64,000 bases of DNA from the NCBI RefSeq assembly GCF_027622855.1, contig NZ_JAPZVR010000003.1:397148-461147 (forward strand), written 5' to 3'. Position numbers and translations under genes: made by a program. Position 1 is the first letter of the stretch. Each line of letters starts with the position of its first letter. Under the pieces are notes generated by a model. It did no database searches. It saw only the letters and a program-made list of their open reading frames with translations, and had not been told where the DNA came from. The stretch is from Glycomyces algeriensis (GTDB taxonomy: Bacteria > Actinomycetota > Actinomycetes > Mycobacteriales > Micromonosporaceae). Positions 18,140-37,690 of the stretch are shown in pieces.

Positions 18140-18310
18140 GTGAGTCAGGGCGGAGCTGCGCCCGAGACCATTCGTTGCTCGCCATGCCGATTGACGGCTC
18201 GCAAGCTTCGCCGAGACTGCGAAAGGGCCTCCGAATACCGGTGTCGTATTCGGAGGCCCGACAGCGCAGCGAGCGGGCGAATGGGCCGGGAGCAGCCCGT
18301 TCTGGCTCAC
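18140..18310. repeat. dispersed palindromic element, copy A
   Basis: 171 bp that can fold end to end. The outer arms GTGAGTCAG (18140) and GGCTCAC (to 18310) are imperfect inverted repeats, as are CCATTCGTTGCTCGC and its partner near 18266-18285. Inside are the 18-bp core (18196-18213) and a perfect 14-bp stem GGGCCTCCGAATAC / GTATTCGGAGGCCC around loop CGGTGTC. It shares its layout with copy B at 37492-37690. It sits between rpe and the GH6 gene and has no reading frame of its own. Confidence 0.82.
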
Positions 18311-18344
18311 CGACCGCGTCCTAGGTGTCGGTTGTGATGTCAGG

Positions 18345-19709
18345 TCAGCAGGGGACGTCCATATCGGCCGGCGAGCCGGAGGCGACGAAGCCGAACAGCT
18401 CCTTCGTCTGGCCCGCCGCGACGGAGCCGTTCCAGCCCACGTCCTTGGCGGTCACCGTCTTCCCGGAGGTCGTGAGCTGCGTGTTCCAGCTGCTCGTGAC
18501 CGCTTGGGTGCCGGGCCACGTCCACGAGATCGTCCAGCCGTTGACGGCCTGGTCCGCGGTCATGGAGACCTTGCCCTGCCAGCCGCCGTTCCAGGTGCTG
18601 ACGGCGTCGATGTGGATGGTGCAGTCGGTCTCGCCGGGCCCGCCGGTGGTGGGGTCGTCGCTGGTCGGGTCGTCGGTCGGGGAGGTCACCGGGTCGGTCG
18701 GCTCGACCTGCCCGGGCCAGCCGCTGCCGGCGTTGTTGGCGAGCTGGTAGGCCAGGTCGGGGATGAACTGGCCGGCCGAGCCGGCGCAGCCGTCGGCCTC
18801 GCCGGGGAGCTTGACCCACAGGTACGCGTCGATGCCGGTGACGCCGGTGGACGTGGTCGGGAACTTGCCGACCGCGCGGCCCGCGGGGTCGCACCAGTCG
18901 TTCGGGTTGGGCGGGTTCAGCGGCCCGTTGCCGTTGCGGCTGGTGTCGATGACGACGCCCTTGCTCGTGCCGACGATGTTGCGGACCTGCTGCGCGTAGG
19001 CGGTGGTCTCGTCGGTGGTGCGGTAGTTGGAGACGTTGAGGGAGAAGCCGTCGGCGTACTGGAGACCGGCGGCCTGGAGGCGGCTGGCGGCCGCGGACGC
19101 GGTGAGCCAGGCCGAGTTGCCGGCGTCGAGGTAGACCTTGGCCGCCGGGTCGGCGGCGTTGAGCTTCTGCGCCGCGTAGGAGAGCGAGGCGTTGATCTGG
19201 GCCCGCTCAGTGGAGCTGTGGCAGTCGTGCGCGATCACGTCGGGCTCGATCACGATGTATGCGGGCCCGTCGATCTCGCCGGCGATGGCGTCGATCCAGC
19301 CGCGGTAGGCGTCGTGGTTCGGGGCGCCGCCGCCGGAGTGGCCGCCGCAGTCGCGGTTGGGGATGCCGTAGACGACCATGATCGGGGCCGCCCCGGAAGC
19401 GGCGGCGCCGTCGACCACGGCCGCGACCTGGGCCGCGATGCCGCCGGTGGGCTGGTACTGGGTGAACCAGTTGCCCGCCGGGGTCTCGGCGATCCGGTCG
19501 CGGATCATGCTCGTGCGCCAGTCGTTGGGGTTCTGGTTCACCCAGCGGGCCGCCCCCGTGTTCGGGTTCGTCCATAGTGCTTGGGCCTGCGCCGAGACGT
19601 CCTCCTGTGCGCCCGCGTTGGGGCTGAGGAGGAAGCCCGCGCTGAGCGCGGTGGCGACCGCGGTCGCCATTCCCGCGACGATCGCCGCGAGGCGCTTTCG
19701 TCGGTTCAT
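18345..19709 (-). CDS. secreted GH6 cellulase with C-terminal CBM2
   Basis: 454 residues, extracellular. Residues 1-35 are a signal peptide; 40-325 form the GH6 catalytic domain. Asp120 in IPNRDCGG and Asp157 in VIEPD are the expected catalytic residues. A Thr/Asp/Pro linker follows (about 328-353), then a family 2 cellulose-binding module (about 354-454) with paired Cys and surface Trp residues. It is most like endoglucanase-type GH6. The ATG follows AAGGAGCACCTG. A near-consensus CebR box lies 62 bp upstream, so induction by cellobiose is likely. Confidence 0.95.
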   Translation of the reverse strand: MNRRKRLAAIVAGMATAVATALSAGFLLSPNAGAQEDVSAQAQALWTNPNTGAARWVNQNPNDWRTSMIRDRIAETPAGNWFTQYQPTGGIAAQVAAVVDGAAASGAAPIMVVYGIPNRDCGGHSGGGAPNHDAYRGWIDAIAGEIDGPAYIVIEPDVIAHDCHSSTERAQINASLSYAAQKLNAADPAAKVYLDAGNSAWLTASAAASRLQAAGLQYADGFSLNVSNYRTTDETTAYAQQVRNIVGTSKGVVIDTSRNGNGPLNPPNPNDWCDPAGRAVGKFPTTSTGVTGIDAYLWVKLPGEADGCAGSAGQFIPDLAYQLANNAGSGWPGQVEPTDPVTSPTDDPTSDDPTTGGPGETDCTIHIDAVSTWNGGWQGKVSMTADQAVNGWTISWTWPGTQAVTSSWNTQLTTSGKTVTAKDVGWNGSVAAGQTKELFGFVASGSPADMDVPC

Positions 19710-19770
19710 CAGGTGCTCCTTGGGTCAGTTGTGCCGGTAACCCGGGGATATATTCACCCCTGTCTATGAA

Positions 19771-19784
19771 TGGTAGCGCTTCCA
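19771..19784. promoter_or_regulatory. CebR-like operator upstream of the GH6 gene
   Basis: TGGTAGCGCTTCCA matches the 14-bp CebR (LacI family) consensus TGGGAGCGCTCCCA at 12 of 14 positions and is itself palindromic apart from one base pair. In Streptomyces and Thermobifida such boxes repress cellulase genes until cellobiose is present. Confidence 0.8.
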
Positions 19785-19818
19785 AAATGTGGGGCTTTCG
19801 GTGCCCCGCCCGAAAAAA

Positions 19819-19869
19819 CAGGGCCCCTTCCTGCGACCGGTTCGCACCGTGACGCGGGAAGGGGCCCTG
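19819..19869 (-). terminator. terminator of the def-fmt-rsmB operon
   Basis: 13-bp perfect stem CAGGGCCCCTTCC / GGAAGGGGCCCTG. On the minus strand it is followed by TTTTTT, a textbook intrinsic terminator, 11 bp after the rsmB stop. Confidence 0.9.
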
Positions 19870-19880
19870 CAGCTGGAGTG

Positions 19881-21257
19881 TTATCGGTTGCCGGTCTTGC
19901 GCAGCAGCGCGAGGAACATGGCGTCCGTGCCGTGGCGGTGCGGCCACAACTGCACGAACTCGCCGCGCTCGGCACCGGGCACGCGCTTGAGGAGCCACTC
20001 GGGACGGACGAGCTCCGCTCCCCCGTCCTTGAGCACCGACTCGACCACCGCTTCGGTCTCGGCGATCACCGGCGAGCAGGTCACGTACGCGACGATGCCG
20101 CCCGGCCGCGCCAGCCGCAGGCCCGAGACGAGCAGCTCGCGCTGCAGCGGCACCAGGTCGTCGATGTCGCTGCGCTGCTTGCGCCACCGCGCCTCCGGGC
20201 GGCGGCGCAGCGCGCCGAGCCCCGAGCACGGGGCGTCGACGAGCACCCGGTCGGCGGAACCCGCCTTGCCGAAGGTGCGGCCGTCGCCGGTGTGGACGGT
20301 GACGGGCAGGCCGCGCGAGGCCTTGGAGACGAGTTCGGCGCGGTGCGACTGGATCTCGACCGCGTCGATCGCCGCGCCCCGTTGGGCTGCAACCGCTCCG
20401 AGCAGGCCGGTCTTGCCGCCGGGCCCGGCGCACAGGTCGATCCACCGCTTGTCCGAGCCCTCCAGCGAGGCTTCGGCGAGCTGCAGGGCGACCAGTTGGC
20501 TGCCCTCGTCCTGGACGTGGGCGAGGCCGGTGGCCACGGCCGGGAGGCGACCGGGGTCGCCGCTCGGCATGTAGACCGCGTACGGCGACCACTGGCCGTG
20601 CCCGCCGCCGCGCGACTCGCGCGACAGGTCGCCCTTGGTGATGCGGCCGGGCTTGGCGCACAGGTGCACCGGGGGGGCCACGTTGTCCGCCGCCAGCGCG
20701 GCCGGCAGCTCCTCGGGGCCGAGCACCGACTCGAACTCGCTCGAGATCCACTGCGGGTGCGCGTAGCGCAGGGAGAGGTCGTGGAGGCGGTCGCCGGTGG
20801 CGAGCTCCTCGGTCCACTGCTCGAGGTCCTTCGCGGCGACCTTGCGCAGCACGGCGTTCGCGAGTCCGGAGACGCGCGGGGAGACGGCCGCCTTGACGAG
20901 GCTGACGGTGGTGGCGACGGCCGCGTGGGCGGGGATGCGCATGTACAGGAGCTGGTAGGCGCCCAGGCAGAGGGCGTCGACGAGGTCCTGCTGGAGCTGG
21001 CGGATCTCGCGGCCGGAGGCGGCGGCGAGGATCGCTTCGAGGGTGCCGAGGCTGCGGAGCGTGCCGTAGGTGAGCTCGGTGGCGAGGGCGGCGTCGCGGC
21101 CGGAGTTGTCGGTCTCGGCGAGCATCCGCGGCAGCACGAGGTTGGCGTAGGCGTTGTCGGCGGTGACGGCGTTGATCGCGTCGAACGCGACGCGGCGCGG
21201 GTTCACCTTCGGACGGTCGTTCTCGGGCGCTCGTTTGCGGTTTCGCTTGTCGCTCAT
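19881..21257 (-). CDS. rsmB: 16S rRNA (cytosine-967-C5) methyltransferase
   Basis: 458 residues: an N-terminal NusB-like RNA-binding domain (about 20-160), then a SAM-dependent m5C methyltransferase. The SAM loop [11 protein letters not shown] is at 274-284, the conserved Cys344 lies in DAPCSGLG and Cys394, the likely catalytic nucleophile, in VTCSP. It modifies C967 of 16S rRNA in assembling ribosomes. The ATG at 21257 overlaps the fmt stop (ATGA), so the genes are translationally coupled. A longer upstream reading overlaps fmt and is rejected. Confidence 0.95.
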
Positions 21258-22177
21258 GTGAACACCGGGCTCTCGGTCTGGAGGCCGCGGCCCCATGCGG
21301 CGGCGTCCATGGGTTTCTTCCCGGCGGGCTGGACCTGGTCGAGGAGGACCGGGTCGGTGGCGGTGCCGACATGGACGTGGTGCTTGGCGAGGCTGATCGC
21401 GCCGGGGGCGAGGCGCGGGCCTTCGGGGTCGGGGCGGACGGGGCCGAGGCGCAGCCGCTGGCCTTCGAACTCGGTCCAGGCCCCGGGGGCGGGGGTGACG
21501 GCGCGGATGCGGCGGTCGACGGCGAAGGCCGGGTCGGTCCAGCGGACGCGGGCGTCGTCGACGGCGATCTTGGGGGCGTAGGAGACGCCGTCGTCGGGCT
21601 GCGGTTCGCCGGTGATGATGCCGGCCTCGAGGGCGTCGACGACGTCGACGGTGAGGCGGGCGCCGGCGACGGCGAGGCGGTCGAGGAGGTCGCCTGAGGT
21701 GTCGGTGGCGGCGATGGGCTCGGTGAGGCGGCCGTAGACGGGTCCGGTGTCGAGGCCTTCCTCGAGCTGGAAGACGCAGGCGCCGGTCATCTCGTCGCCG
21801 TTGAGGACGGCGTGCTGCACGGGGGCGGCGCCGCGCCATGCGGGCAGGAGCGAGAAGTGCAGGTTGATCCAGCCCAGGCGCGGGATCGCGAGGGCGGCGG
21901 GCGGCACGAGGGCGCCGTAGGCGACGACGGGCACGATGTCGGCGTCGAGTTCGCGCAGGCGCGCGAGGAACTCGGGTTCGCGCGGTTTGGCGGGGGTGAG
22001 CACTTCGACGCCGTGCTCGTCGGCCCAGGCGGCGACGGGCGAGCGGGAGACCTTGCGGCCGCGGCCGACGCGCGCGTCAGGGCGGGTCAGGACCGCCGCC
22101 ACTTCGTGGTCGGACGCGTGGAGGGCCTCGAGGGTCGGCAGTGCGACCTCCGGGGTCCCGGCGAAGACGATCCTCAT
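21254..22177 (-). CDS. fmt: methionyl-tRNA formyltransferase
   Basis: Formylates initiator Met-tRNA using 10-formyl-THF. It has 307 residues: an N-terminal formyltransferase domain (about 1-190) with the motif [15 protein letters not shown] and the catalytic Asn/His/Asp set, and a C-terminal OB-like tRNA-binding domain. The ATG at 22177 overlaps the def stop. def-fmt-rsmB is a conserved gene order that links formylation, deformylation and rRNA modification. Confidence 0.97.
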
Positions 22178-22725
22178 CGCTTGAAGAACACACCCTTGGA
22201 GTCGTGGGGGGTGACTTTCACTTTGACGTCTTCGTTGTACCAGTCCTGGGACTGGATCTCCGCCATTGCGGCCTTGCGGCGGTCGGAGTCGAGGCGGTCG
22301 ATGAAGATGATGCCGTCGAGGTGGTCGGTCTCGTGTTGGAGGCAGCGGGCCATGAGGCCGGTGCCGACGATCTGGAGGGGGTCGCCGTACTCGTTGAAGC
22401 CCTTGGCGACGACGTTCTGGCGGCGGACCGTGTCGAAGTAGAGGCCGGGGAGGGAGAGGCAGCCTTCGGGGCCGTCCTGCTCCTCTTCGTCGGGGAACTC
22501 GAGCACGGGGTTGACGATGTGGCCGATGACGTCGTCGACGTCGAAGGAGAACACGCGCTTGCTGACGCCGAGCTGCGGCGCGGCGAGCCCGGCGCCGCCT
22601 TCGTCGCGCATGGTGTCGAGCAGGTCCTTCACGAGGCCCCGCAGTTCCTTGTCGAAGGTGTCGACGTCCTCGGCGGCGGTGCGCAGGACCGGGTCGCCGA
22701 AGATGCGGATGGGCTGGATCGACAA
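22174..22725 (-). CDS. def: peptide deformylase
   Basis: Removes the N-formyl group from nascent proteins at the ribosome exit. It has 183 residues with all three PDF motifs: [19 protein letters not shown] and QHETDHLDG, giving the metal ligands Cys and two His. The likely start is a TTG at 22725 with GGAAGG 8 bp upstream, giving the common N-terminus [16 protein letters not shown]. The frame stays open upstream to an ATG at 22962 that would add a membrane segment; see the separate entry. Confidence 0.94.
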
Positions 22726-22962
22726 TGTGCTGACCTTCCGATGCGTGTACTGGCCGTCTACCAGTGTCCCACCCGCCGGACGCGCTGCGTGAGGGGTCGG
22801 CGCCCGGTGTGGTGCGGATCCGGGCCGCCGCGCCGGGCCCGCGGCCGCGCCCGCCTCGGCGGCCCGGTCGGCGGCGCGCATGAGCCCGGCGACGAGGCAG
22901 GCGGTGGCGCACACGAGCAGGACGACCACGGGGAACGGCACGGCGAGGTCGAGGAGTCCCAT
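22726..22962 (-). other. in-frame upstream extension of def with a membrane segment
   Basis: From the ATG at 22962, 3 bp after the preceding permease stop, the frame runs without a stop into def. The first 28 residues are a single hydrophobic helix ([20 protein letters not shown]...), followed by an Ala/Pro/Arg-rich linker of about 50 residues. It could be a small membrane protein that reads through, an N-terminal anchor for deformylase, or chance. Only a weak AGAAAAG precedes the ATG. Confidence 0.35.
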
Positions 22963-22965
22963 GGT

Positions 22966-23670
22966 TCAGGCTTTTCTGTGGGACATCGGCGCCCGGGCGA
23001 GCGTGAGCCAGACGATCAGGACGAACACGACGGTGAGGACGGCGTCCATCGGAGCCAGCAACTCCTCGCTGCCGGGGAACTCGACTTCGAAGACCTTGCC
23101 TTCGGCGAACTCCGTGAACAGCAGTTGGAACGGGATCGGTCGGAAGATCAGCACCGCGATGACGACCCCGGCGAGCACCGCACCGAGGGTTCGGCCGTTG
23201 AAGCGGGCCATGACCGCGCCGGCGGCGGCCCCGGCGGTGAAGTAGACGGCTGTGCGGATCAGGGTTTCGAGCAGGGCCGCGCCGCCGAGGTCGAGTCGGC
23301 CGAGGTCTCCGGCACCGACGAGGTTGTGGCAGAGCTTGACCAGTTCGATGAAGGCGACGCTTCCGGCGAGGACGACCGCGCTGAAGACGGCGAACGCGAC
23401 GAAGAGCTCCTTGCGGGTCATGCCGGTGGCTATCGCGCGCGGGAAAGCCTTGAAGAGGTAGGCCCAGCCGATGGCGGTGAGGACGAACGGCGCGTAGCGG
23501 AGGAGGTAGACGCTGTAGTCGCCTTCGAAGCCGATAGCGAGGCGGAATCCGAGCTGGACGAGCTGCAGTGCCGCGAAGGCGATCAGGGCCCCGAGGCCGA
23601 CGGTCCTGCCGACCTCGGCGGACCATTGCAGGCCGAGGCGGTACTTGCGTTGGGCGAGTGCGGTGTTCAT
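22966..23670 (-). CDS. ABC-2-like permease subunit 3
   Basis: 234 residues with about six membrane helices. The N-terminal motif [12 protein letters not shown] is shared with the next permease (LAQRRYRFGWRLF), and [20 protein letters not shown] matches helix 3 of both siblings. It is a paralogue from local duplication. With the ATPase at 25119 it should form an exporter or drug-sensing pump of the YtrBCDEF type. The start overlaps no neighbour but lies 1 bp from the upstream stop. The substrate is unknown; cell-wall antibiotics induce the Bacillus ytr operon. Confidence 0.82.
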
Positions 23671-23671
23671 G

Positions 23672-24355
23672 TCAGGCCTGCTTTCCCCGGACCGGGATCG
23701 AGCGGAGTGCGGCGGCGCATCCGGCGGCCAGGGCCGCGGCGAGGACGATGGCGGCGATGGCTGAGAGGGCGGTGGAGCGGCCCGGGTCGAACCACGCGTC
23801 GTTGAACTCGAGGTAGAGGGTCGCGGCGTAGAGCGCGCCGGTGCCGAAGAGGACCGCTGTGGTGAATCCGCCGCTGCCGCCGTAGCGGGTGGCGAGCGCG
23901 GCGACGAGGACGCCGGCGAAGCAGTAGACGGGCGTGATGGCGAGGTAGCGGACGCCGGAGGCGAGGGCGGCGCCGAAGCTCGTCGGGGGTTCGTCCACGA
24001 GCGCCATGAGGGCGTGCTCGGCGATGAAGCCCAAGGTCAGGTAGGCCGCGAGGGCGACGGAGGCGAGGACGCCGAAGAGCATGAAGGCGACGGTGATCTC
24101 GCGGCGGGTGCAGCCGCGGGAGACCCAGACGGCGAGGTTGCCGAAGAGCAGCATCCCGGCGGTGCCGGCGGCGAACCACTGGAGGACTGCGGCGGTGATG
24201 GACCACAGCCCGAGTTCGAAGACGTCGGCGAGCAGTGCGGAGAGGACGGGGATCAGCACGATCCCGGTGAGCAGCCACCACTTGAGCCAGGTGGTGGCGC
24301 CGGTGAAGAGGCGCCAGCCGAACCGGTAGCGGCGCTGGGCGAGTCGGGTTTCCAT
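23672..24355 (-). CDS. ABC-2-like permease subunit 2
   Basis: 227 residues with about six membrane helices. It shares the N-terminus METRLAQRRYRFG and the cytoplasmic motif CTRREITVAFMLFG with its two neighbours. It lies 2 bp after the stop of subunit 1 and 1 bp before subunit 3, so the three are translated as one block. It is probably a heteromeric partner rather than redundant. Confidence 0.82.
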   Translation of the reverse strand: METRLAQRRYRFGWRLFTGATTWLKWWLLTGIVLIPVLSALLADVFELGLWSITAAVLQWFAAGTAGMLLFGNLAVWVSRGCTRREITVAFMLFGVLASVALAAYLTLGFIAEHALMALVDEPPTSFGAALASGVRYLAITPVYCFAGVLVAALATRYGGSGGFTTAVLFGTGALYAATLYLEFNDAWFDPGRSTALSAIAAIVLAAALAAGCAAALRSIPVRGKQA

Positions 24356-24357
24356 GA

Positions 24358-25116
24358 TCAGGCCTTCTTGGAGCGCAGCGGGATGTCGATGAGGATCCGG
24401 CGGGCGGCGACCGCGAGGACGAGTGCGACGGCGACGATCGCGGCGAGGACCGCGGCGCGGCCCCAGTCGTCCATGAACCGGCCGAGGAAGCCCATCCAGC
24501 CCGGACCGAACGGCTCGGTGTCGTAGAGCGCGTTGTCGAGGCTGAAGACGACCGGGAGGACGGGGACCAGGAGCAGCCAGCCGCTGCCCTCCCAGCGGTA
24601 GGCGGCGGCGCCGATCGCGGCCCCGGCGGCGAAGTACGCGAGGTACATCAGCGGGTAGACCGCGGCGAAGGCGGCGGTCTCACCCCAGGAGCCGAGGGTC
24701 GTGATGGTGTCGTTGAGCTGGATCCCCTGGGTCCAGCCCATGGCGTCGTAGAAGACGCGTTCGACGAGAAGCCCGGCGAAGACGAGCACGCCGATCGCGA
24801 TCGACCACAGTAGGCCGAAGACGCCCATGGCGGCGCTGAGTTCGCGGCGGGTCAACCCCGCGGCGATCATGTTGGGCACCAGCGCGTAGAGGAAGCCGCC
24901 GGCGACGAACGCGGTGAACCACTTGCCGACGTTCGCGGTGTAGAACCAGGTCGAGAGCTCGATCTCAGTGGAGAGCGAGAGCGCGAGCGGCCCGAGGAAG
25001 GCGAGCACGACGGCCGCGGCGATCCAGTATCTGAAGTACTTCAGGCCCTCTCCGGCGAGGCCGAGGCCGAGGGCGAAGCGGCGGTTGGGCAGCGAGAGGT
25101 TCGCGAGGGACGACAT
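24358..25116 (-). CDS. ABC-2-like permease subunit 1
   Basis: 252 residues with about six membrane helices. It is a third paralogue of the set, with LPNRRFALGLGLAGEGLKYF at its N-terminus and LTRRELSAAMGVFG in the cytoplasmic loop. Its start lies 2 bp after the ATPase stop. It is the most divergent of the three permeases. Confidence 0.82.
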   Translation of the reverse strand: MSSLANLSLPNRRFALGLGLAGEGLKYFRYWIAAAVVLAFLGPLALSLSTEIELSTWFYTANVGKWFTAFVAGGFLYALVPNMIAAGLTRRELSAAMGVFGLLWSIAIGVLVFAGLLVERVFYDAMGWTQGIQLNDTITTLGSWGETAAFAAVYPLMYLAYFAAGAAIGAAAYRWEGSGWLLLVPVLPVVFSLDNALYDTEPFGPGWMGFLGRFMDDWGRAAVLAAIVAVALVLAVAARRILIDIPLRSKKA

Positions 25117-25118
25117 CG

Positions 25119-25994
25119 TCAGGCTCCGTTCCGGTTCGGTTCGGTGAGGTGGATGAAGAGGTCCTGGAGGCCGACGGGGCCGATCTCGAGTCCGGCTGCG
25201 GCGGCGCGCTCGCGGGTGCCGGGCTCGAGGGCGGCGACGGTGGCGCTCTTGGTGCCGCCGAGCTGCTGCTCGGCGAGGACCTCGAGGCCGGCGGCGATCG
25301 CGTCGACGGCGGCGGCCGGGCCGGTGAGGGTGGCGCCCATGTTCTGGAAGACCTCGACCTCCTCGTGGCGCAGGATGCGTCCCTTGTCGACGATGACGAC
25401 CTCTTCGAGGTAGTTGGCGACCTCGTCGATGAGGTGGGTGGAGAGGATGACGGTGTGGGGCCGGTCCATGTACTCGGCGAGGAGCTCCTTGTAGAACGCG
25501 TCCCGGGTGGGGGCGTCCATGCCGAGGTGGACCTCGTCGAACATGGTGAGCTCGGCGCGGGCGGCGAGGCCGCAGATCGCGGCGAGGATGGAGCGCTTGC
25601 CGCGGGAGAGCTCGCGGACCTTCTTCTTGAGCGGCAGCTCGAACCGGTCGGCGAGCTTGAGCGCGTAGGCGGTGTCGAAGGCGGGCCGGATCTGGCCGGT
25701 CTCGATGGTGGACTTGACCGAGTCGGAGTCGTCGAAGTCGCCGCCTTCGCGGATGAGGGCGACGCGGGAGACGATCCCGGCGTTCTCCCAGACGGGCTCG
25801 CCGCCGACGAGGACCTCGCCGCCGGTGGGCTTGCGGAAGGCGGCCAGGAGGCTGAGGAGGCTGGTCTTGCCGGCGCCGTTGCGGCCGAGCAGGCCGTAGA
25901 TCTTGCCGGCTTCGAGGTCGAGGTTGACGTCGGCGAGCGCGTCGGTGTCGCGGTACTTCAGCGTGACGTCGCGGAGGGTGGCGGAGAAGCTCAT
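25119..25994 (-). CDS. ABC transporter ATP-binding protein (YtrB-like)
   Basis: 291 residues. Walker A GRNGAGKT (about 37-44), Walker B TMFDEV and the H-loop STHLIDE are intact. The signature helix reads LSRGK rather than LSGGQ, which occurs in some drug exporters of this branch. The Walker B hydrophobic run ends in D but the usual Glu follows directly (DEV), so hydrolysis is expected. The start overlaps the stop of the GntR gene by 4 bp. It powers the three adjacent permeases. Confidence 0.9.
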   Translation of the reverse strand: MSFSATLRDVTLKYRDTDALADVNLDLEAGKIYGLLGRNGAGKTSLLSLLAAFRKPTGGEVLVGGEPVWENAGIVSRVALIREGGDFDDSDSVKSTIETGQIRPAFDTAYALKLADRFELPLKKKVRELSRGKRSILAAICGLAARAELTMFDEVHLGMDAPTRDAFYKELLAEYMDRPHTVILSTHLIDEVANYLEEVVIVDKGRILRHEEVEVFQNMGATLTGPAAAVDAIAAGLEVLAEQQLGGTKSATVAALEPGTRERAAAAGLEIGPVGLQDLFIHLTEPNRNGA

Positions 25995-26356: not shown

Positions 26357-26398
26357 CTCGCCTCCTTCGGTGTAGAGCGAATGGTTCGTTGGTCCATA

Positions 26399-26422
26399 GG
26401 TTCATTACTTGACTAATGAACC
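26399..26422. promoter_or_regulatory. palindrome upstream of the ytrA-like operon
   Basis: GGTTCATTA / TAATGAACC, perfect 9-bp arms with a 6-bp spacer, in an unusually AT-rich promoter. Its size and place suit autoregulation by the GntR protein. Confidence 0.8.
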
Positions 26423-26472
26423 ATAGCACGTAGGCGCCGACAGGTGTCAACCCGCGAGGGCGCGCGGCATCG

Positions 26473-26499
26473 CGGGCCCGACCGCGATGGTCGGGCCCG
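26473..26499. terminator. hairpin after the SARP gene
   Basis: CGGGCCCGACC / GGTCGGGCCCG, 11-bp perfect stem with a 5-bp loop, between the SARP stop and the GntR promoter. There is no T run. Confidence 0.65.
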
Positions 26500-29741: not shown

Positions 29742-29758
29742 GAAAGGAACCGTCCTAC

Positions 29759-30292: not shown

Positions 30293-30297
30293 ATGCG

Positions 30298-30334
30298 AGA
30301 ACGGCCCCTGTCCTTTCAGGATAGGGGCCGTTCT
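30298..30334. terminator. hairpin between convergent methyltransferase remnant and T7SS-like gene
   Basis: AGAACGGCCCCT / AGGGGCCGTTCT, 12 bp, extended by about four inner pairs around TTTC. It could serve both strands. Confidence 0.8.
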
Positions 30335-30404
30335 GCGTCGTCGGCAGCCCCTGCTCCGGGCGGGAACGCCGAAGATCGGTGGCGGCCGACTCCCTCGCGG
30401 GATC

Positions 30405-31811
30405 TCAGGGCTTCCCGGGTTCGGGCAGGTCGAAGTCCGGGAAGGTGAACGGCGGCAGCTCCTCCACCGGCGGGAGCGGCGGCAGGTCGGACTGCATCGC
30501 CGGCTCCTCCTGGTAGTCGACGTAGGGGTTGCCCTCGTCCGTGCCGATGCCCCACACGTCGTCCTCCGGGTCCTCGGTCAGGAAGGACTCGCGCTCGTAC
30601 TCCTCGTCGGGGTTCAGCGGCCCGCGCGCACCGGGTGCGCCGAGCATGCCGCCGCCGACGCCGGGCCGGCCGCCCGGCACGCCCGCCGGACCGCCGCCTG
30701 CGGGCGTGCCGACGAGGCCCATCGCGCCGCCTGAGCCGGTGCCCGTAGTACCGGAGGGGACGTCGGTCGAGCCGAGGCCCCCGCCGCCGAGACCGCCGCC
30801 TCCGCCGGAGGCGAGGCCGCCCGCGGGCACCTCAGACTCCTCGAGTTCGCTGGGCTTCCAAGGGTCGCCCAGGTCGGGGCCGCCGGGCACGAACGGGTCG
30901 GCCGTGAAGTCGGGCACCTCGGGGCCCGGGTCCGGAGGCTCGAACCCGGGGATCTCGTTCTCGGGCTGCTCGCGGTCGGGCTGCGGGACCTCAGGCTGGG
31001 GCTGCTGCTCCCCCGGCTGGTCCTCGTCCTTGTCCTGGTCCTTCTCGTCCTGATCCTGGTCTTCGTCCTCTTTGTCCTCGTCTTCTTTGTCCTTGCCGTC
31101 CTTGTCCTTCTCGTCGTCGTCCTCCTTCTCGTCTTCCTTGCCCTTGTCGTCCTTGCCCGTGTCCTTGCCGGTGTCCGTCTCGTCCTTGACGTCCGCACGC
31201 TGCTCGACCTTTTCGATGTTGCCGTCCTCGCCGTCGTCCTTCACGGTCAGGCAGTCGGTGGCAGCAGGCCCCTTGTCCTCCAAGGGCTCCAGCGCCTCAC
31301 CGGCGGCGGTCAGGGCAGTCCCGGTCGCCACATCGGCCGCCGTCAGCACGGCCAGCCCGGTCGTGAGCTGCATCGTGCCCTCGTCGGCGCGCGCCTGGAA
31401 CACGGCCTGCAGCACGGGCCCGAACGGCCCGGCGGCCGCGATCGCCGCCCAGTGCACAGGCCCCAGCTCTACCTTCGGCGCGGGCTGCACCACGAACCCC
31501 GCCCCCTTGTAGGCCGCATCGGTGGCCTTCAACTGCTCCACCTGCGAGGCCATCGCCGAACCGCCGGTGCTCAGCACCTCGGCGGCCTCGCCGACCTGCG
31601 AGGCGACCCCGTCCACGTGCTCGTCCACCAGGTCCACGTCCTCGTTGAACGCGGCGTTCGCCTGGTCCTGCCAGCCGTCGTTGATCGTCGTGACCGTCGT
31701 GTCGTACGCGGCCCGGTGGTCGGTCAGGTCGTTCCCGGCGGCACTCATCTCGGTTGCGCAGTCGACGAACGCGGTGGGGTCGGCGGCCAGCGCCTCCTCG
31801 TATGCGGGCAT
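30405..31811 (-). CDS. WXG100-like protein with charged and Gly-rich tail (T7SS substrate candidate)
   Basis: 468 residues. The N-terminal helical hairpin (about 1-95) carries a WXG-type turn at Trp47 (DGWQDQANAAF). A small apolar segment (about 115-185) follows. Next is an extreme Lys/Asp/Glu/Gln stretch (about 205-265), a Pro-rich part and a Gly-rich repeat region (about 345-405). The acidic C-terminus ends in EEL...FPDFDLPEPGKP. There is no signal peptide. The architecture resembles long EspB/PPE-like substrates or secreted structural proteins of type VII systems. No EccC-type ATPase is in the window, so the secretion machine must be elsewhere. It lies 8 bp from the upstream small gene. 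Confidence 0.75.
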   Translation of the reverse strand: MPAYEEALAADPTAFVDCATEMSAAGNDLTDHRAAYDTTVTTINDGWQDQANAAFNEDVDLVDEHVDGVASQVGEAAEVLSTGGSAMASQVEQLKATDAAYKGAGFVVQPAPKVELGPVHWAAIAAAGPFGPVLQAVFQARADEGTMQLTTGLAVLTAADVATGTALTAAGEALEPLEDKGPAATDCLTVKDDGEDGNIEKVEQRADVKDETDTGKDTGKDDKGKEDEKEDDDEKDKDGKDKEDEDKEDEDQDQDEKDQDKDEDQPGEQQPQPEVPQPDREQPENEIPGFEPPDPGPEVPDFTADPFVPGGPDLGDPWKPSELEESEVPAGGLASGGGGGLGGGGLGSTDVPSGTTGTGSGGAMGLVGTPAGGGPAGVPGGRPGVGGGMLGAPGARGPLNPDEEYERESFLTEDPEDDVWGIGTDEGNPYVDYQEEPAMQSDLPPLPPVEELPPFTFPDFDLPEPGKP

Positions 31812-31819
31812 GGCTCCTC

Positions 31820-32146
31820 CTACTGCTCGCGGCGGATCGGAATGCGGCGCTCGATGGCGCGGAACCGGCCGCGCACCTCCTGGTCGCAGGATTCGAGCTC
31901 GTCGGCGCTCGAGGCCACCTGCGCGCCCTGCCAGTCGACGCGGCGCTCGACACCGGCCGTGACCGTGTCGAACTTCCCGTGCCACTGCACGCCGGCGTCG
32001 CCGGTGAAGAAGCCGCTGTTGCTCGACGCGGCCGTCTGCGCGGGGGCCTGCACGCGGTCGGAGGCCAGCTTGGCCTTCGGCGCCAGCGCCTGCAGGTCGC
32101 CGCCGCCGCCGCGCACCTGCTCCACTTCCATGTACACCTCGTCCAC
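31820..32146 (-). CDS. small WXG100-like protein
   Basis: 108 residues, helical, with a WXG turn at Trp55 (VQWHGKF) roughly in the middle, as in ESAT-6-like proteins. Helix two ends in RRIPIRREQ. The GTG at 32146 follows GGAGGGAG with 6-bp spacing; an internal ATG five codons later is possible. It is immediately upstream of the large WXG-like gene, the common small-then-large order of T7SS substrate pairs. It lies divergent from a second such pair. Confidence 0.75.
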   Translation of the reverse strand: MDEVYMEVEQVRGGGGDLQALAPKAKLASDRVQAPAQTAASSNSGFFTGDAGVQWHGKFDTVTAGVERRVDWQGAQVASSADELESCDQEVRGRFRAIERRIPIRREQ

Positions 32147-32291
32147 GCTGGTCTCCCTCCGTTCGGCGCTGCCCCTGCAATGTGCCTCCCGCCGCCACGG
32201 ACCCGTCCCGCCGCGGCTAGAGCGAAGTCGTGGCGATTCCAGTGCGGGCCGGTCTTCCATGGGGGCGAAGCGAACCAGGGAGGTGCACGGC

Positions 32292-33974
32292 ATGAGCGAC
32301 GGCGGATTCATCGAGGGCTCGGCCCCCAGCGGCGATGCGGGGTCCGAGTTCGTGACGGTCTTCGAGGCCGATTCGGGAACGGACACCGCGATCACCTATG
32401 GGGAGGGGACTCTCGACTACGACGACACGGCGTTCGCCACCTACGACGGCACGGCCTACACCGAGATGGAGACGGCGACCGCGAGTGCCGCCATCGCGTT
32501 CGGCGACACCGCCGGCCTCGAGACCGGGACCGAGCGCGCGGGCTGCACGGCGGGCGCCTGCCCGCACCCGGTCGCGCACCCGGCCGAGACCGACTGGGAG
32601 CAGCTGGCTTCGGCGGTCCCGGTCGAGGGCCAGCTAGGCCGGTTCAAGCCGTTCTGCGAGGGCATGTCGTACCCGACGGAGGACGACTTCCGGGCGGCGG
32701 TGAGCGCGGTCCGCCCGATCGACCCGGACTCGTTCTCGCTGCAGCGCTTGCGCACCGGCTGGAACGAAGAGGTCGCCGCGGTCATCGGCGACTGGCCCGC
32801 CCAGCTCAAGACGAAGCTGACGGCACTCTCGACCGGTTGGGCCGGAACGGACTTCGACGCGTTCGCCGACCAGACCGACCAGGCCCGCACCCTCCTGGAG
32901 GGCATCCTCGACGACATCGAGGCGGCCGCGCAGGAGCTCAAGCACCGCGAGGAGGCGGTCTACACGCTTCAGGGCGGCGACTCCGGCGAGATCCCCTACC
33001 CCGCACCGCTGGTCGGCGCGGACGGCGAGTGGACGAACCTGGTGGCGGTCCACGTGCGGCCCGCGTGGTGGCACGGCGACTGCATCCAGATGACCTGCGA
33101 AGAGGCCGAGAAGGCACTGGAGCTCGGCGGTGCCGATCCGGCGCTGGCGGCGGAGGTGCGGACGTTCATCGAGCAGAAGGCGGGCGAGGCAGCCTCCACT
33201 GTGGTCGGCACGGTGGTCTCGGAGGCGAGGGTCGCGGCGGGCGAGGAGGCGAAGGCGAGCTTCGGTTCGCGCATCAACGCGGAGCTGGCGGCGTACACCG
33301 AGCGGCAGGCGGCGATCGACGAGTCGATCGGCGAGAAGCGCGCGGGCCAGAGCGAGCAGCTCTCCGCGTTGCGCACGGCCGGGTCGGACCGGTCCTACCC
33401 GGAGAGCGCGGACGCGTCCTACATGGACCTCGAGCCCCCGGCCATGGAGCAGCCGGCGCCTCCGGTGCCGCCGCAGACGACGCAGGACCCGACGCCGGTA
33501 CCGCCGGGCGGCGACGGTTCGGTCGCGGCGACCGAGACCGGGGCCGAGACCCCCGCGAACCCTTGGGAGTCGACGCCCGCGGGCGAGGGCGGCGAGGTAG
33601 CCGGCGGTCTCGCGAGCGGCGGTGGCGGCGGGTTCGGCGGCATGGGCGGCGGCTTCGGCTCGGTCCCGGGCGGTGCGGGCGCGCCGGCCGGCGGTTCCGT
33701 CGGCGGGGGCGCGTTCGGGAGCACGATGCCGGGCGCGTTCACCGCTCCGGGGGCGCCCGGCGCGGCCCCCGCCGGGGGCGCGGGCGGCGGCGCGGGCGGG
33801 TCCAGGACCGCGATGGTCGGCGGCGCGCCGCAGCAACAGCAGCAGGCGGCCGAGGCCCGCAAGAAGCAGGGGAAGTCCGAAGAGGACGAAGAGGCGGAGG
33901 AAGAGGACCTGACCTTCCGCGAGACCGACTTCGCCTGGGGCTACATCAGGCCCGGCGACGACCCTTACAACTAG
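32292..33974 (+). CDS. large WXG100-domain protein with Gly/Ala-rich C-terminus (T7SS substrate candidate)
   Basis: 560 residues. An unusual acidic, Thr-rich N-terminal part (about 1-100) contains three Cys. The WXG motif WAG is at 183-185 in a helical hairpin (about 150-230). A second helical region spans about 265-370. After a Pro-rich stretch comes a Gly/Ala-rich low-complexity region (about 440-515), then QQQQQ, an acidic run (KSEEDEEAEEEDL) and the C-terminus TFRETDFAWGYIRPGDDPYN. The ATG follows GGGAGGTG. The two large proteins of the locus share this layout (WXG, Pro, Gly-rich, acidic tail), so they are probably functional counterparts. Confidence 0.75.
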   Translation: MSDGGFIEGSAPSGDAGSEFVTVFEADSGTDTAITYGEGTLDYDDTAFATYDGTAYTEMETATASAAIAFGDTAGLETGTERAGCTAGACPHPVAHPAETDWEQLASAVPVEGQLGRFKPFCEGMSYPTEDDFRAAVSAVRPIDPDSFSLQRLRTGWNEEVAAVIGDWPAQLKTKLTALSTGWAGTDFDAFADQTDQARTLLEGILDDIEAAAQELKHREEAVYTLQGGDSGEIPYPAPLVGADGEWTNLVAVHVRPAWWHGDCIQMTCEEAEKALELGGADPALAAEVRTFIEQKAGEAASTVVGTVVSEARVAAGEEAKASFGSRINAELAAYTERQAAIDESIGEKRAGQSEQLSALRTAGSDRSYPESADASYMDLEPPAMEQPAPPVPPQTTQDPTPVPPGGDGSVAATETGAETPANPWESTPAGEGGEVAGGLASGGGGGFGGMGGGFGSVPGGAGAPAGGSVGGGAFGSTMPGAFTAPGAPGAAPAGGAGGGAGGSRTAMVGGAPQQQQQAAEARKKQGKSEEDEEAEEEDLTFRETDFAWGYIRPGDDPYN

Positions 33975-33988
33975 CGAGGAGTGGCGCG

Positions 33989-34432
33989 ATGGGACAGGAG
34001 CGGGTGTTCGACCCCGAAGCGATCGAGGAGTACCGGCTGTTCCTGCTGGAGCTGCTCGACGCGCTCGAGAACCAGGTGATCCCGGTGCTGGGCACCGGGA
34101 CCCTGAGCCGGGCCCCGGCGTTCGGGACCGCGCCGGGCGCGGCCGAGAACGCCGCGGTCCAGTACCTGGAGTTCCACGCCGCCACCTGGCGGAACCTCCA
34201 GTACCTGCGGGGGACGCTGCACGGCATGGAGTCCGCGCTGACCGTGGTCGCGGCGAGCGGCGGCGAGGCCGAAAAGGAGGCGACGGTGGGCCTCGCGTCC
34301 ACCGAGTCCGATCTGGCCGCGCCGACCGCGGAGCCGACGGCCGACCAGAGCACGGCCGGCGCGGTCCACATGACCGAGGGCTTCACCGTTGAAGGCACCG
34401 ATCCCGGTGGGGCGACGGTGTTCACCGCATAG
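33989..34432 (+). CDS. small helical protein of the WXG cluster (147 aa)
   Basis: 147 residues, 14 bp after the previous stop and in the same transcript. Residues 8-90 are amphipathic helices (FDPEAIEEYRLFLLELLDALENQVIP, then YLEFHAATWRNLQYLRGTLHGMESAL), compatible with a partner for a WXG hairpin. The C-terminal 50 residues are acidic and Thr/Ala-rich. No named family is recognised. Its role as chaperone or co-substrate is inference from position only. Confidence 0.7.
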   Translation: MGQERVFDPEAIEEYRLFLLELLDALENQVIPVLGTGTLSRAPAFGTAPGAAENAAVQYLEFHAATWRNLQYLRGTLHGMESALTVVAASGGEAEKEATVGLASTESDLAAPTAEPTADQSTAGAVHMTEGFTVEGTDPGGATVFTA

Positions 34433-34471
34433 GAGCGCCCGGTCCCGCGCACTCGGGACCGGGCGCGCTCC
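34432..34471 (+). terminator. terminator after the WXG cluster
   Basis: Long GC hairpin (GGAGCG-CCCGGTCCCG paired with CGGGACCGGG-CGCGCTCC) with one bulge, starting at the stop codon and followed by GTTCGG. Confidence 0.7.
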
Positions 34472-34565
34472 GTTCGGCGGCTCGCGATCGTCGCCGCGAC
34501 CGCGGAGCGGCCTCGGCGAACCGGTGTCCCCTGCAAAGGTTTGGCGGCCTTCCGGATCCGGGGCC

Positions 34566-35207
34566 TTAGACGAGTCCGCCTTCGTAGGCGGCGATCACGG
34601 CCTGGGTGCGGTCGCGGACGCCGAGTTTGGCGTAGACGCCGCTGAGATGGGTCTTGACGGTCTCGCGGCCGAGGAAGAGCGTCCCCGCGATCTCCTGGTT
34701 GGAGAGGCCTTTGGCGGCGAGCACCAGGACTTCGCGCTCGCGGTCGCTGAGGTCGCCGATGCCTTTGGGGGCCTTGCGGGTCGGGGCCGCGGCGGCGAGG
34801 CGGCGCACCGCCTCGGGGAACAGGAGCGCGTCCGTGCGGGCGACGAGCCTGACGGCCGCGAGGAGGTCTTCGACGCGGGTGCGCTTGAGCAGGAACCCGT
34901 CGGCCCCGGCGCGCAGGGCCTGCCACACGTAGTCGTCGTTGTCGAAGGTGGTGACGACGAGGATCTTCGGCGGCGCGTCGAGTTCGGCGACGATCCGCTC
35001 CGTCGCCTGGATGCCGTCCACTGTGGGCATGCGGACGTCCATGAGGAGCACGTCGGCCTTGCCGGAGCGGGCGATGGTGAGGGCGTCGACGCCGTCGGCG
35101 CCCTGGGCGACGACCTCCAGGTCCGGTTCGGCCCCGATGATCGCGGCGAACCCGGTGCGGATCAGCGCCTCGTCGTCGATCAGCGCGATGCGCAGTGTTG
35201 CGGTCAT
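34566..35207 (-). CDS. NarL/LuxR-family response regulator
   Basis: 213 residues: a receiver domain (about 5-120) with phosphoacceptor Asp in LLMDVRMP and conserved Lys in GFLLKR, and a C-terminal LuxR helix-turn-helix (about 148-210; LSDREREVLVLAAKGLSNQEIA). It is the output partner of the kinase directly upstream; the kinase stop overlaps its ATG (35207). The target genes are unknown. Confidence 0.93.
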   Translation of the reverse strand: MTATLRIALIDDEALIRTGFAAIIGAEPDLEVVAQGADGVDALTIARSGKADVLLMDVRMPTVDGIQATERIVAELDAPPKILVVTTFDNDDYVWQALRAGADGFLLKRTRVEDLLAAVRLVARTDALLFPEAVRRLAAAAPTRKAPKGIGDLSDREREVLVLAAKGLSNQEIAGTLFLGRETVKTHLSGVYAKLGVRDRTQAVIAAYEGGLV

Positions 35208-36418
35208 TCCCGGCCCTTCGTCTCGATCGGTACGGCGGCGCGGACGGTCCATTCGCCCGCGTGCCAGTCGGCTGCGGCGGTGCCGCCGAGGACGGCGGCG
35301 CGCTCGGCCATGCCGATGAGGCCCCGCCCGGCGGGGCGTCCGCGCGGCCGCCGCGCGGCCGGGCTGGTCACCGTCACGGAGGCTTCGGTGTCGAGCTCCA
35401 CGGTCACGGCGGCGCGCGGTTCGTCGGCGTGGCGCAGCACGTTCGTGAGCGCCTCCTGGACGATCCGGTAGATCTCGCGGGAGGCCAGGCGGCCCAGCGT
35501 CTCGGGGTCGCCGGTGACGCGCAGGTCGACGGCGACGCCGGACTCGGCGGCGAGCTGCGCGAGGTCGGCGAGGTCGCGCTGCGGGGCGCGCGCGTCGTCG
35601 CGGTCCTCCCGCAGGGCCCCGATGACGGCGTCGAGTTCGGCCAGCGCGCCGCGGGCGGTCTCGCCGACGGCGGCCATGGCCTGGGAGGCGAACGCCGGGT
35701 CGTGGGCGATGAGCCGCGAGGCGGCCTCGGACTGGACGACGACCACCGACAGGGCGTGGCCCACGGAGTCGTGGAGTTCGCGGGCGATGCGGTTGCGGGC
35801 GGCCAGGCGGGCGGCCTCGGCGCGGGAGGCGGCGAGGCGGTCGCTCGCGCCCTGGCCGAGGAGGCGGGGCGCGAGGGCCCGCATGCCGGCGGTGGTGGCC
35901 GCGACGAACGCGATGAGGGCCGCCAGGAACAGCGGGCCGGTGAGCAGGCCCCAGGTGGCGACGGGCCCGCCGAAGGGGCCGGGCTCGGGGCCGAGGTTCG
36001 TGAAGGTGGCGCGGGCACCGTGGTAGAGCAGGTAGCAGACGTACGGGACGAGGGCGAGGGTGATGCCGCTGAGGACGCCGCCGATCGCGACGTGGAGGGT
36101 GAACCAGCATCCGGTGCGCCAGCGGGAGTTCCAGGACTCGTCGTCGGCGGGCGAGGCGAACTCGGCGCCGAGGAGGCGGCGGGCGGCCGTGCGCTCGACC
36201 TCGCGGTCGGGCAGGAGCAGGGAGGCGGCGGCGACGAGCGGAAGGACGGCGGCGAAGACGGCGGGTTCGATGATGCCGTCGAATCCGGCGTCGGGGTCGA
36301 CGGCGTTGCGGCCGATCGCGCCGACCATCATGAACGGCATCATGAGCGCGCCGCCGAGGATGATCCAGACCCAGCCGCGGTAGGTGGCCCGGGACCAGAG
36401 CGGGGCGAGGAGGCGCAT
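35204..36418 (-). CDS. NarL-type sensor histidine kinase
   Basis: 404 residues. About four to five membrane helices (about 15-190) lie in the sensor part. The HisKA_3 dimer/phosphoacceptor domain has the His box RNRIARELHDSVGHALS (about 220). The HATPase domain has the N box IVQEALTNVLRHA, but the usual DDG/DNG G1 box is replaced by [20 protein letters not shown]; only the G2-like GRGLIGM remains, so ATP binding may be atypical. It is coupled to the regulator gene by a 4-bp overlap. The start is taken at the ATG at 36418. Confidence 0.9.
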   Translation of the reverse strand: MRLLAPLWSRATYRGWVWIILGGALMMPFMMVGAIGRNAVDPDAGFDGIIEPAVFAAVLPLVAAASLLLPDREVERTAARRLLGAEFASPADDESWNSRWRTGCWFTLHVAIGGVLSGITLALVPYVCYLLYHGARATFTNLGPEPGPFGGPVATWGLLTGPLFLAALIAFVAATTAGMRALAPRLLGQGASDRLAASRAEAARLAARNRIARELHDSVGHALSVVVVQSEAASRLIAHDPAFASQAMAAVGETARGALAELDAVIGALREDRDDARAPQRDLADLAQLAAESGVAVDLRVTGDPETLGRLASREIYRIVQEALTNVLRHADEPRAAVTVELDTEASVTVTSPAARRPRGRPAGRGLIGMAERAAVLGGTAAADWHAGEWTVRAAVPIETKGRE

Positions 36419-36496
36419 GGGGCCATTGTGCCAGCGGCGGTGCATCGGTCCAGCTTCGCAGGCGCCGACGCCTGCGGCCTCCCTCCACGGCGGGGC

Positions 36497-36522
36497 CCCG
36501 GTCCCCCGCGCGGGGGACCGGG
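36497..36522. terminator. hairpin after the PhnB-like gene
   Basis: CCCGGTCCCCC / GGGGGACCGGG, 11-bp stem with a GCGC loop, between the PhnB-like gene and the kinase gene. Confidence 0.7.
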
Positions 36523-36536
36523 CGTGCCCGGGCGGA

Positions 36537-37016
36537 CTATCCGCCTTCGTAGGCGGTCTTGAGCGCCTGGAGGTCGATCTTCTTCATCGCGTACATGGCC
36601 TTGACGGCGCGCACGGCCGACTCCTTGTCAGGGCCGCCCACGTACTGGTCGGCCTCGGTGGGCCAGACCTGCCAGTTGACGCCCCACTTGTCGGCGATCC
36701 AGCCGCACTGGATCTCGCTGCCGCCGTTGGCGAGGAACGCGTCCCAGAGGCGGTCGACCTCGTCCTGGGTGTCGCAGTTGATGAGCAGGGACATGGCGTG
36801 GTCGTGCTTGGCGGAGTCGTCGCCGTTGATGGCGGTGAACGACTGCCCGGCGAGGTCGAAGTTCACGACCATCGCGTTCCCGACGGTCCCGTGCTCGTCC
36901 TCGACGTACGGGATCGTGCTGGTCACCTTGGCGTCGTCGAAGAGGGTCAGGTACCACTCCACGGCCGCCTCGGCGGCGTTGTCCGTGTACCAGATGTTGG
37001 TGACGATCTTCTGCAT
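36537..37016 (-). CDS. PhnB-like VOC protein
   Basis: 159 residues of the PhnB/3-dmu-9_3-mt type within the VOC superfamily: KIVTNIWYTDNAAEAAVEWY at the N-terminus, FTAINGDD and QCGWIADKWGVNWQVWP in the second module. Despite database names these are not methyltransferases; their function is mostly unknown. The ATG at 37016 follows GGAAGGACGAACC. It is divergent from the DUF1801 gene; both are of the type found near oxidative or drug-stress genes, but no shared operator is seen. Confidence 0.88.
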   Translation of the reverse strand: MQKIVTNIWYTDNAAEAAVEWYLTLFDDAKVTSTIPYVEDEHGTVGNAMVVNFDLAGQSFTAINGDDSAKHDHAMSLLINCDTQDEVDRLWDAFLANGGSEIQCGWIADKWGVNWQVWPTEADQYVGGPDKESAVRAVKAMYAMKKIDLQALKTAYEGG

Positions 37017-37138
37017 GGCGGTTCGTCCTTCCGAGCGGAGCCGAACTGGGCTGCCTTGATAAGGCGATTGCACCAGTTGAGACGAGGCGGCGGGGCGAAA
37101 CTCATCGCTCGGGGCGCGTTCGGGGCTACGTTTCGGGG

Positions 37139-37495
37139 ATGGTGCAGAGCGAGGCGGCGACCGTGGACGAGTACCTGGCGGAACTCCCCGAGGAGCGCCG
37201 GGCGGTGATGACCGCGATCCGGGACGTCTGCCGGGCGGAGCTGCCCGGGTTCACCGAGGTCATGGCGTACGGGATGCCGGGGTTCACGCGCGGCGGCGAC
37301 GGCGTCGCGTTCGCGTCCCAGAAGCGGTACATCTCGTTCTACCTGCCCGTCGGCGTGCGCGACGCCCTCGCCGAGCGGCTCGCGGACCACGACATGGGCA
37401 AGGTCTGCCTCAGGTTCTCCTCCCCGAGGAAGGTCGACCTCGACCTCATCCGGGACATCGCCCGGGCCACGGCGGCCATGCCCGGCCCGGTCTAG
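37139..37495 (+). CDS. DUF1801 (YdhG-like) protein
   Basis: 118 residues. DEYLAELPEERRAVMTAIRDVCRAELPGFTEVMAYGMPGF is the signature of DUF1801, a small fold sometimes named iron chaperone by similarity to frataxin-like Fra. A C-terminal basic patch (RKVDLDLIRDIAR) follows. It is cytoplasmic. Its role is unknown. The stop lies in the left arm of repeat copy B. Confidence 0.85.
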   Translation: MVQSEAATVDEYLAELPEERRAVMTAIRDVCRAELPGFTEVMAYGMPGFTRGGDGVAFASQKRYISFYLPVGVRDALAERLADHDMGKVCLRFSSPRKVDLDLIRDIARATAAMPGPV

Positions 37496-37690
37496 GGTGT
37501 TTGAGAAGTCCCGGCGAGTCGGTATCCGAGTCCATTCGTTCGCTCGCAATGCCGATTGACGGCTCGCAAGCTTCGCCGAGACCGCGGAGGGGCCACTGCA
37601 TACCGGTGTTGTATGCAGGGGTCCTGACAACGCAGCGAGGGGGCGAATGGGCCGGATAGCTGCCGGCGGGGTTTCGCAAACACCCCCTAG
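37492..37690. repeat. dispersed palindromic element, copy B
   Basis: 199 bp bounded by imperfect terminal inverted repeats: CTAGGGTGTTTG at the left and CAAACACCCCCTAG at the right, extending into GAGAAGTCCC / GGGTTTCGC. Inside are CCATTCGTTCGCTCGC and its inverted partner, the 18-bp core (37561-37578) and a hairpin CTGCATAC / GTATGCAG with loop CGGTGTT. Its layout equals copy A (18140-18310). It starts at the stop of the DUF1801 gene. Confidence 0.82.

Follow-up and report, generated by a model that had tools for sequence, protein, structure and literature searches.

Copies of a dispersed palindromic element in Glycomyces algeriensis: a probable MITE lineage with a strand-biased folded core and IS5-type ends

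A 64,000-nucleotide stretch of the Glycomyces algeriensis genome (NCBI RefSeq GCF_027622855.1, contig NZ_JAPZVR010000003.1, positions 397,148 to 461,147; hereafter the window) contains two copies, A and B, of a long palindromic element. These probably belong to a single lineage of miniature inverted-repeat transposable elements (MITEs) with a cis-acting structured core that is used as a single strand, either RNA or single-stranded DNA (ssDNA), and with changing helper transposases. A first-pass annotation of the window, made from the letters alone, had proposed a MITE or a structured RNA rather than chance. This is supported, and the evidence favours both together: IS5-type ends bordered by TA, and a fold that covaries and favours one strand. 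The parts of the two copies are as follows.

18129-18321, plus: copy A, whole element; TA only on the right (18322-18323), left TA lost
18129-18150, plus: copy A, left arm of the end stem (P1)
18168-18182, plus: copy A, left arm of the second stem (P2)
18186-18221, plus: copy A, stretch with the 33-bp insert of the long copy type
18225-18259, plus: copy A, inner hairpin (P3); perfect 14-bp stem 18225-18238/18246-18259, loop CGGTGTC
18260-18267, plus: copy A, 3' flank of P3, GACAGCGC, the commonest form being GACAACGC
18269-18284, plus: copy A, right arm of P2
18301-18321, plus: copy A, right arm of P1, then TA 18322-18323
37495-37687, plus: copy B, whole element; TA 37493-37494 on the left and TA 37688-37689 on the right
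37495-37512, plus: copy B, left arm of P1 (terminal inverted repeat)
37532-37547, plus: copy B, left arm of P2
37551-37586, plus: copy B, stretch with the 33-bp insert
37589-37625, plus: copy B, P3; imperfect stem 37589-37603/37611-37625, loop CGGTGTT 37604-37610
37626-37633, plus: copy B, conserved 3' flank of P3, GACAACGC
37635-37650, plus: copy B, right arm of P2
37668-37687, plus: copy B, right arm of P1 (terminal inverted repeat)

The order of parts described at first pass (outer inverted ends, arm, core, hairpin and inverted arm) is present in both copies, and copy B has its terminal inverted repeats; the limits of the elements had to be corrected, to those listed here. The hairpin stems do differ in their letters and still pair, perfectly in A and imperfectly in B, and the loop is conserved but for one base. 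The "18-bp core" of that description is found in both copies but belongs to the 33-bp insert, which is restricted to some members of the family. Each copy folds as one long hairpin enclosing an inner hairpin, with folding z-scores of -8.7 for A and -6.3 for B (-11.6 for a further copy, L011), and a 25-mer common to A and B occurs twice in the window against an expectation of 0.00 (100 shuffles). A chance palindrome is rejected by these shuffles and z-scores.

Searching the host genome with copy B returned 60 pieces, and 21 copies served to build a covariance model (R1). With this model the host genome holds 28 strong copies (at least 96 bits, opposite-strand echoes not counted), and matches occur in 21 of the 22 genomes of the genus. 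From the listed R1 matches, 125 genus copies, 27 of them from the host genome, were oriented and measured; the weakest of those listed, one copy broken by N (C7:52412) and L053 were left out. The usual length is about 162 bp, or about 195 bp with the 33-bp insert, and the window copies are of this long type. From the outside in, a copy consists of TA, P1 (about 20 bp), P2, the insert in some copies, AAGGCGG and P3, followed by GACAACGC or a near form, P2, P1 and TA. The P3 loop is CGGTGTT, closed by ATAC/GTAT in most copies. The insert motif GACGGCTCGCAAGCTTCGCCGAGACC, or near forms of it, is also found alone elsewhere in the genome (L030, L063, L066, L067, L069, L070 and L074), at several sites near ATGTCAGGGT and, in a relative, in tandem form (L068); it is a second repeat family nested in the MITE family.

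Pairing is kept in the stems while their letters vary. Among 118 Glycomyces copies there are 105 distinct P1 left arms, with 2178 of 2360 cells Watson-Crick and all 20 end positions paired in 49 copies; the variable P3 stem takes 57 distinct forms among 112 copies, 58 of which pair at all 14 positions (unalignable copies, 7 of 125 for P1 and 13 of 125 for P3, are omitted). Both partners have changed in 27 of the 61 pairs of the 21-copy alignment, whose covariation score of 0.373 compares with 0.143 in shuffles, with 0 of 500 as high. An alignment of 23 cores gives both-side changes in 16 of 23 pairs and a score of 0.487 against 0.139, again with 0 of 500 as high. Since the copies are related, these shuffle controls are generous and overstate independence. 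The further copies and covarying stems on which the first-pass annotation had staked its reading, and for which it proposed a covariance-model search of the genome and its relatives, are both present. A pseudoknot between loop and flank was ruled out, its variants showing no covariation. Rfam gave no match above gathering score at the element in the window (its only such match is a riboswitch at 16127-16268, described below) and none at gathering score for seven loci from the genus and other genera, with matches below the cut-off only at L214.

The family extends well outside Glycomyces. The pattern ATACCGGTGTTGTATN{5,18}CAACGC occurs in at least 111 stretches, of which 80 were listed; among the matches listed are copies from Micromonospora, Glycomyces, Rugosimonospora, Virgisporangium, Longispora, Actinocatenispora, Stackebrandtia, Plantactinospora, Verrucosispora, Nocardia, Rhodococcus and a Pseudonocardiales metagenome-assembled genome. 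A single Marinomonas hit (L251) is put down to chance. Most pattern copies have a like plan and length, but differing ends and P2. A second model (R2), made from 23 cores of these genera, detects the element in 30 of the 150 genomes searched from the order. They belong to 20 of 55 genera and to eleven families; within genera the distribution is patchy, and close relatives lack the element. The copies behind R2 were chosen by pattern, so their loop and CAACGC are invariant by choice. In distant families, 8 of 19 fetched copies have TA-bounded paired ends; L349 and L352 differ in the loop and keep AAGGCGG and GACAACGC, and in L357, L361 and L365 these letters vary too. The core is common to many families of the order while the stems differ. 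Plasmid and phage searches with copy B and L214 gave no match, and viral contigs gave 0 for the exact pattern.

For 62 of the 125 genus copies, a search that required TA found it at both ends, with 11 or more of the 16 end letters paired. Their targets are CTAG in 35, TTAA in 12, CTAA in 12 and others in 3 (YTAR). The flanking 4-mers differ in 28 of the 62 and TA is kept in all, so the duplicated target is TA only; the target duplications that the first-pass annotation suggested looking for thus amount to TA, at both borders. Relative to the plus strand of the element, the non-palindromic targets of these 62 copies are CTAA 12 times and TTAG 0 times, and those of other genera 3 and 2 times (by eye); a preference in target orientation is possible. 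By codon-score heuristics rather than annotation, a stop codon lies at the TA in 72 of 128 gene ends facing an element (33 left, 39 right). On the same basis the 125 genus copies lie in minus (45), plus (26), convergent (33), divergent (10) or unclear (11) contexts. The contexts of 66 distinct copies of other genera are convergent (24), minus (12), plus (11), divergent (5) or unclear (14). This context at stop codons and gene ends fits what a TA-targeting mobile element would leave, and pneumococcal BOX is alike in this (PMC3049150). In relatives of a Micromonospora genome with recent copies, the corresponding sites are without the element and their junctions have diverged. Such empty sites favour insertion; diverged junctions alone give no sign of duplication. 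In the host assembly, G/C runs (also N in L016/L019) lie beside copies L016, L017, L018 and L073, some at contig ends, and the elements may break the assembly.

Between their limits, 149-267 bp apart in the 125 copies, the elements hold no transposase gene; what, then, could move them? Of 152 distinct copies, 55 have an end that differs in no more than 3 of 16 letters from at least one of 24 ends of insertion sequences (ISs), where shuffled letters give 0.07, and the same comparison at internal MITE offsets 16, 24 and 40 gives 0 of 155 copies. All 16 end letters agree between IS L114 (G018) and MITE L004, and between IS L320 (M. avicenniae) and MITE L262; the ends of L324 and L327 are one letter off, and those of L106, L107, L108 and L341 three. 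The ends of L114 are GGGCCTGTCCTGTGAAT, as in one class of MITEs. PF13586 has matches in 17 of the 22 genomes of the genus, above the cut-off in 11, and 10 of 30 fetched PF13586 loci have paired ends around a body of 889-955 bp bordered by TA. Three ISs tested against NCBIfam NF033580 (IS5 family, cut-off 110) score 252.4 (L341), 248.4 (L107) and 157.5 (L114), and Pfam DDE transposase domains are found in L341 and L114. A helper search in nine genomes reached from other-genera loci had hits in six, and ISs of M. avicenniae, M. musae and M. lupini have ends 0-3 letters from Micromonospora or Rugosimonospora copies. Candidates for the transposase with matching ends that the first-pass annotation suggested looking for thus occur in relatives and other genera. 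Movement of the MITE lineage by IS5-family transposases appears well supported by these comparisons of ends and targets.

The core appears to have no convincing match to the IS bodies. Comparison of the two gave 90 BLAST pieces with E<0.1; the best E among about 38 of them is 0.007, and they are 14-44 letters long and scattered. They were taken as chance, and an origin of the MITE as a deletion derivative of an IS was rejected. Three loci deserve mention here. About 17 kb before the window, L065 (G000:C23:379300-379900) is an IS5-type transposase tail with a matching end, by eye a dead helper. At L064 (G000:C31:308000-308600) a palindrome of about 52 bp is made up of just two IS5-type ends between CTAG sites. 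In Micromonospora lupini (L347), an IS5-type IS and a MITE copy appear to adjoin, with one common CTAG.

The two strands of a palindrome differ in their fold mainly by G.T as against A.C pairs. The predicted RNA fold is better on the plus strand in 117 of 123 Glycomyces copies, 64 of 64 from other genera and 18 of 19 from distant families (two of the last, L354 and L355, repeat other-genera copies, and some of the rest are near-duplicates). The mean advantage is 15-19 kcal/mol, and flanking stretches are without bias (60 of 122). A hold-out of 31 pattern stretches beyond the 80 listed, 28 of them distinct, strengthens this bias, the plus strand being better in 27 of the 28; there and in the other-genera set, the plus strand was defined by the sequence pattern. 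DNA parameters also favour the plus strand (120 of 123 Glycomyces, 62 of 64 other genera), so RNA and ssDNA are not told apart. Among mismatches counted as distinct events in other genera, the ratio of G.T to A.C is 30:6 in P3 and 27:8 in P1, where 60 of 66 copies were kept after an offset search that favours pairing; L251 and L264, which has no left arm, were excluded from the mismatch counts. Glycomyces P2 gives 78:24 events including two fixed T.G positions, and 61:26 by cells without them, and the P3 cells of the 28 held-out copies give 17:2. The G.T excess is independent of the direction of host genes. We take the plus-strand bias as a sign of a putative strand-specific, single-stranded form that matters to the element.

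A few sites among the fetched copies have homologous flanks on both sides. At one of them (L160/L171; flanks 95.6% and 92.6% alike) the end stem shows four matched double changes and one single change in 19 pairs. Several other same-site end-stem pairs are out of register by 1-3 bases, and only L160/L171 was counted. L005/L081 share a site, as do L010/L155/L168, and in both cases the element's orientation is reversed between copies. Either the arms were re-matched in place or the sites were hit again, and the flipped pairs fit both. L026/L037, L143/L161 and L089/L182 probably stem from different insertions.

Copy A has a GH6/CBM2 gene (18345-19709, minus) on one side and a ribulose-phosphate 3-epimerase gene (open reading frame 17391-18185, minus) on the other. 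The latter frame, a mechanical call, overlaps copy A, and its Pfam match begins only at residue 46; the true start of the gene is probably outside the element. In relatives G005 and G015 the copy A site is without the element, and in G002 and G007 it is occupied by small, shrunken palindromes with other letters, with 15 of 15 and 12 of 13 pairs (by eye). At copy B, the TAG stop of a DUF1801 gene (37139-37495) is formed by the left TA and the first G of the element, of which two G are missing from the left end relative to the sister copy L002. A strong hairpin directly after copy B (37704-37747) is also found in G015 and G002, which have no element there (by eye), and is probably the gene's own terminator. 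Elsewhere in the window are a flavin mononucleotide (FMN) riboswitch (16127-16268, minus; Rfam RF00050, 98.6 bits) and, at 13013-13065, two near-identical, operator-like 23-bp palindromes, TTCACATACCTCGGGTATGTGAA / TTAACATACCCCGGGTATGTGAA, with 7 bases between.

How might one core come to carry so many ends? In the mechanism proposed here, IS5-family transposases would act in trans on the P1 ends, insert the element at YTAR and duplicate TA. Surviving insertions would lie mostly at the 3' ends of genes, perhaps because many stop codons contain TA and insertion elsewhere would be harmful. The core (P2, the AAGGCGG/GACAACGC internal loop and P3) would be a cis-acting structure, used as a single plus strand of RNA or ssDNA, that promotes the spread of the element; used as a folded strand, it would keep its shape and not the letters of its stems. 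The end stem would drift in matched pairs until a copy comes to fit another helper, and helper change by such paired drift would give one core with many end types. We infer a structured single strand under selection and a change of helpers. A more daring version, in which a mobile structured nucleic-acid module (at its boldest, a selfish RNA) parasitises a whole class of IS5 transposases, its plus strand having to fold, its ends being remade in place in matched pairs with a resulting change of helpers, and one core with more than 100 end sequences spreading across the order, is conceivable but held tentatively, at less than even confidence.

Several observations weigh against a MITE with a single-stranded core and changing helpers. 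Movement and the single-stranded form are read here from the letters and from predicted folds, and in the Glycomyces and distant sets the plus strand was taken as the one that better matches a model already including the fold. Relatedness among the copies makes mismatch events partly dependent. In Glycomyces, P3 shows no G.T excess (25:29 over 14 positions) and P1 a weak one (61:39). On the side of the helpers, 97 of the 152 copies are more than 3 letters from every IS end compared. In L114 the open frame spans just positions 108-258 of the 258 in the profile; this IS may therefore be defective or read in two frames, and the ISs with full-length frames, L107 and L341, have ends 3 letters off. 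In the host genome, searched by PF01609 and PF13586, no helper with matching ends was found, the L065 tail apart; the PF01609 hits were rejected as helpers because their ends do not fit.

Could the matched arms be a matter of DNA alone? Template switching in replication, or conversion, might match the arms of a functionless core. The paired arm changes at homologous sites such as L160/L171, the flipped elements at some of them, the shrunken palindromes at the copy A site and the symmetric P3 mismatches of Glycomyces would all be expected. However, two P2 positions retain T.G mismatches, one in 108 and the other in 110 of the 122 Glycomyces copies, which argues against arm copying, since this should remove them; strand bias is found in every set tested, and the core is common across families whose stems differ. 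DNA-only pairing, with its symmetric mismatches, was abandoned given the G.T event counts and the plus-strand fold bias, and this explanation is regarded as quite improbable. If a single strand is involved, it could still be ssDNA rather than RNA. IS200/IS605 elements use a strand-specific transposition route, and similar logic here would agree with the better plus-strand fold under DNA parameters and with a bias that does not depend on host transcription. Against it stand the ends, TA targets and likely helpers, which belong to the DDE family and not to HUH enzymes; we consider it unlikely, if not markedly so.

The hairpins might instead serve the host, as RNA 3' ends (terminators or mRNA stabilisers) whose pairing is kept by selection on neighbouring transcripts. 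This would account for the many facing genes that stop at the element, and the BOX study offers a precedent for stop codons inside repeats (PMC3049150). It does not account for the lack of orientation preference in the left and right stop overlaps, or for mismatches that do not follow the transcribed strand: in Glycomyces P1 the ratio of G.T to A.C is 13:12 where the plus strand is transcribed and 29:17 where the minus strand is, and in P3 of other genera it is 5:1 and 6:2. Copy B, moreover, precedes a hairpin that the element-free G015 and G002 also have, and the family is distributed patchily. A host role of this kind is very unlikely. A MITE lineage with a structured core of its own remains the reading we prefer.

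Compared with IS5-family ISs (NF033580; PF13340, PF01609, PF13586), the element has the same or near end letters and YTAR targets, but as a MITE it lacks a transposase gene, and no convincing match links its core to IS bodies. ERIC and Correia are palindromic MITEs with TA duplication in other hosts, and neither is known to have more than one end type. BOX and RUP of pneumococcus are short interspersed repeats whose ends pair when folded and which are enriched between convergent genes; RUP has IS-like ends and IS630-Spn1 as helper, and by that study's counts, 36 of the 58 genes overlapping BOX take their stop codon from it (PMC3049150). As described, they resemble the present family in their pairing ends, short interspersed form, convergent-gene sites and stop-codon overlap; their hosts are pneumococcus and close relatives, whereas the present family is order-wide, with many end types on one core and a strand bias. 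BrickBuilt of Porphyromonas gingivalis is likewise a bacterial MITE with predicted long stem-loops, and its authors mention possible compensatory mutations, but its interior is a minisatellite (PMC4596501). A literature search, with most subscription papers outside its reach, found no paper on this MITE family.

MITEs are usually regarded as dead remnants of a single insertion sequence. In the present family many bacterial families have retained one core, which has no convincing match to any IS compared, whereas the ends follow different helpers; the fold favours one strand. If the proposed reading is true, the element would be non-coding yet under selection for its own structure, with a way for such elements to change helpers, and it would offer a test of whether ssDNA or RNA takes part in IS5-type movement. 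The family would also explain many of the hairpins found directly after stop codons in Glycomyces and Micromonospora.

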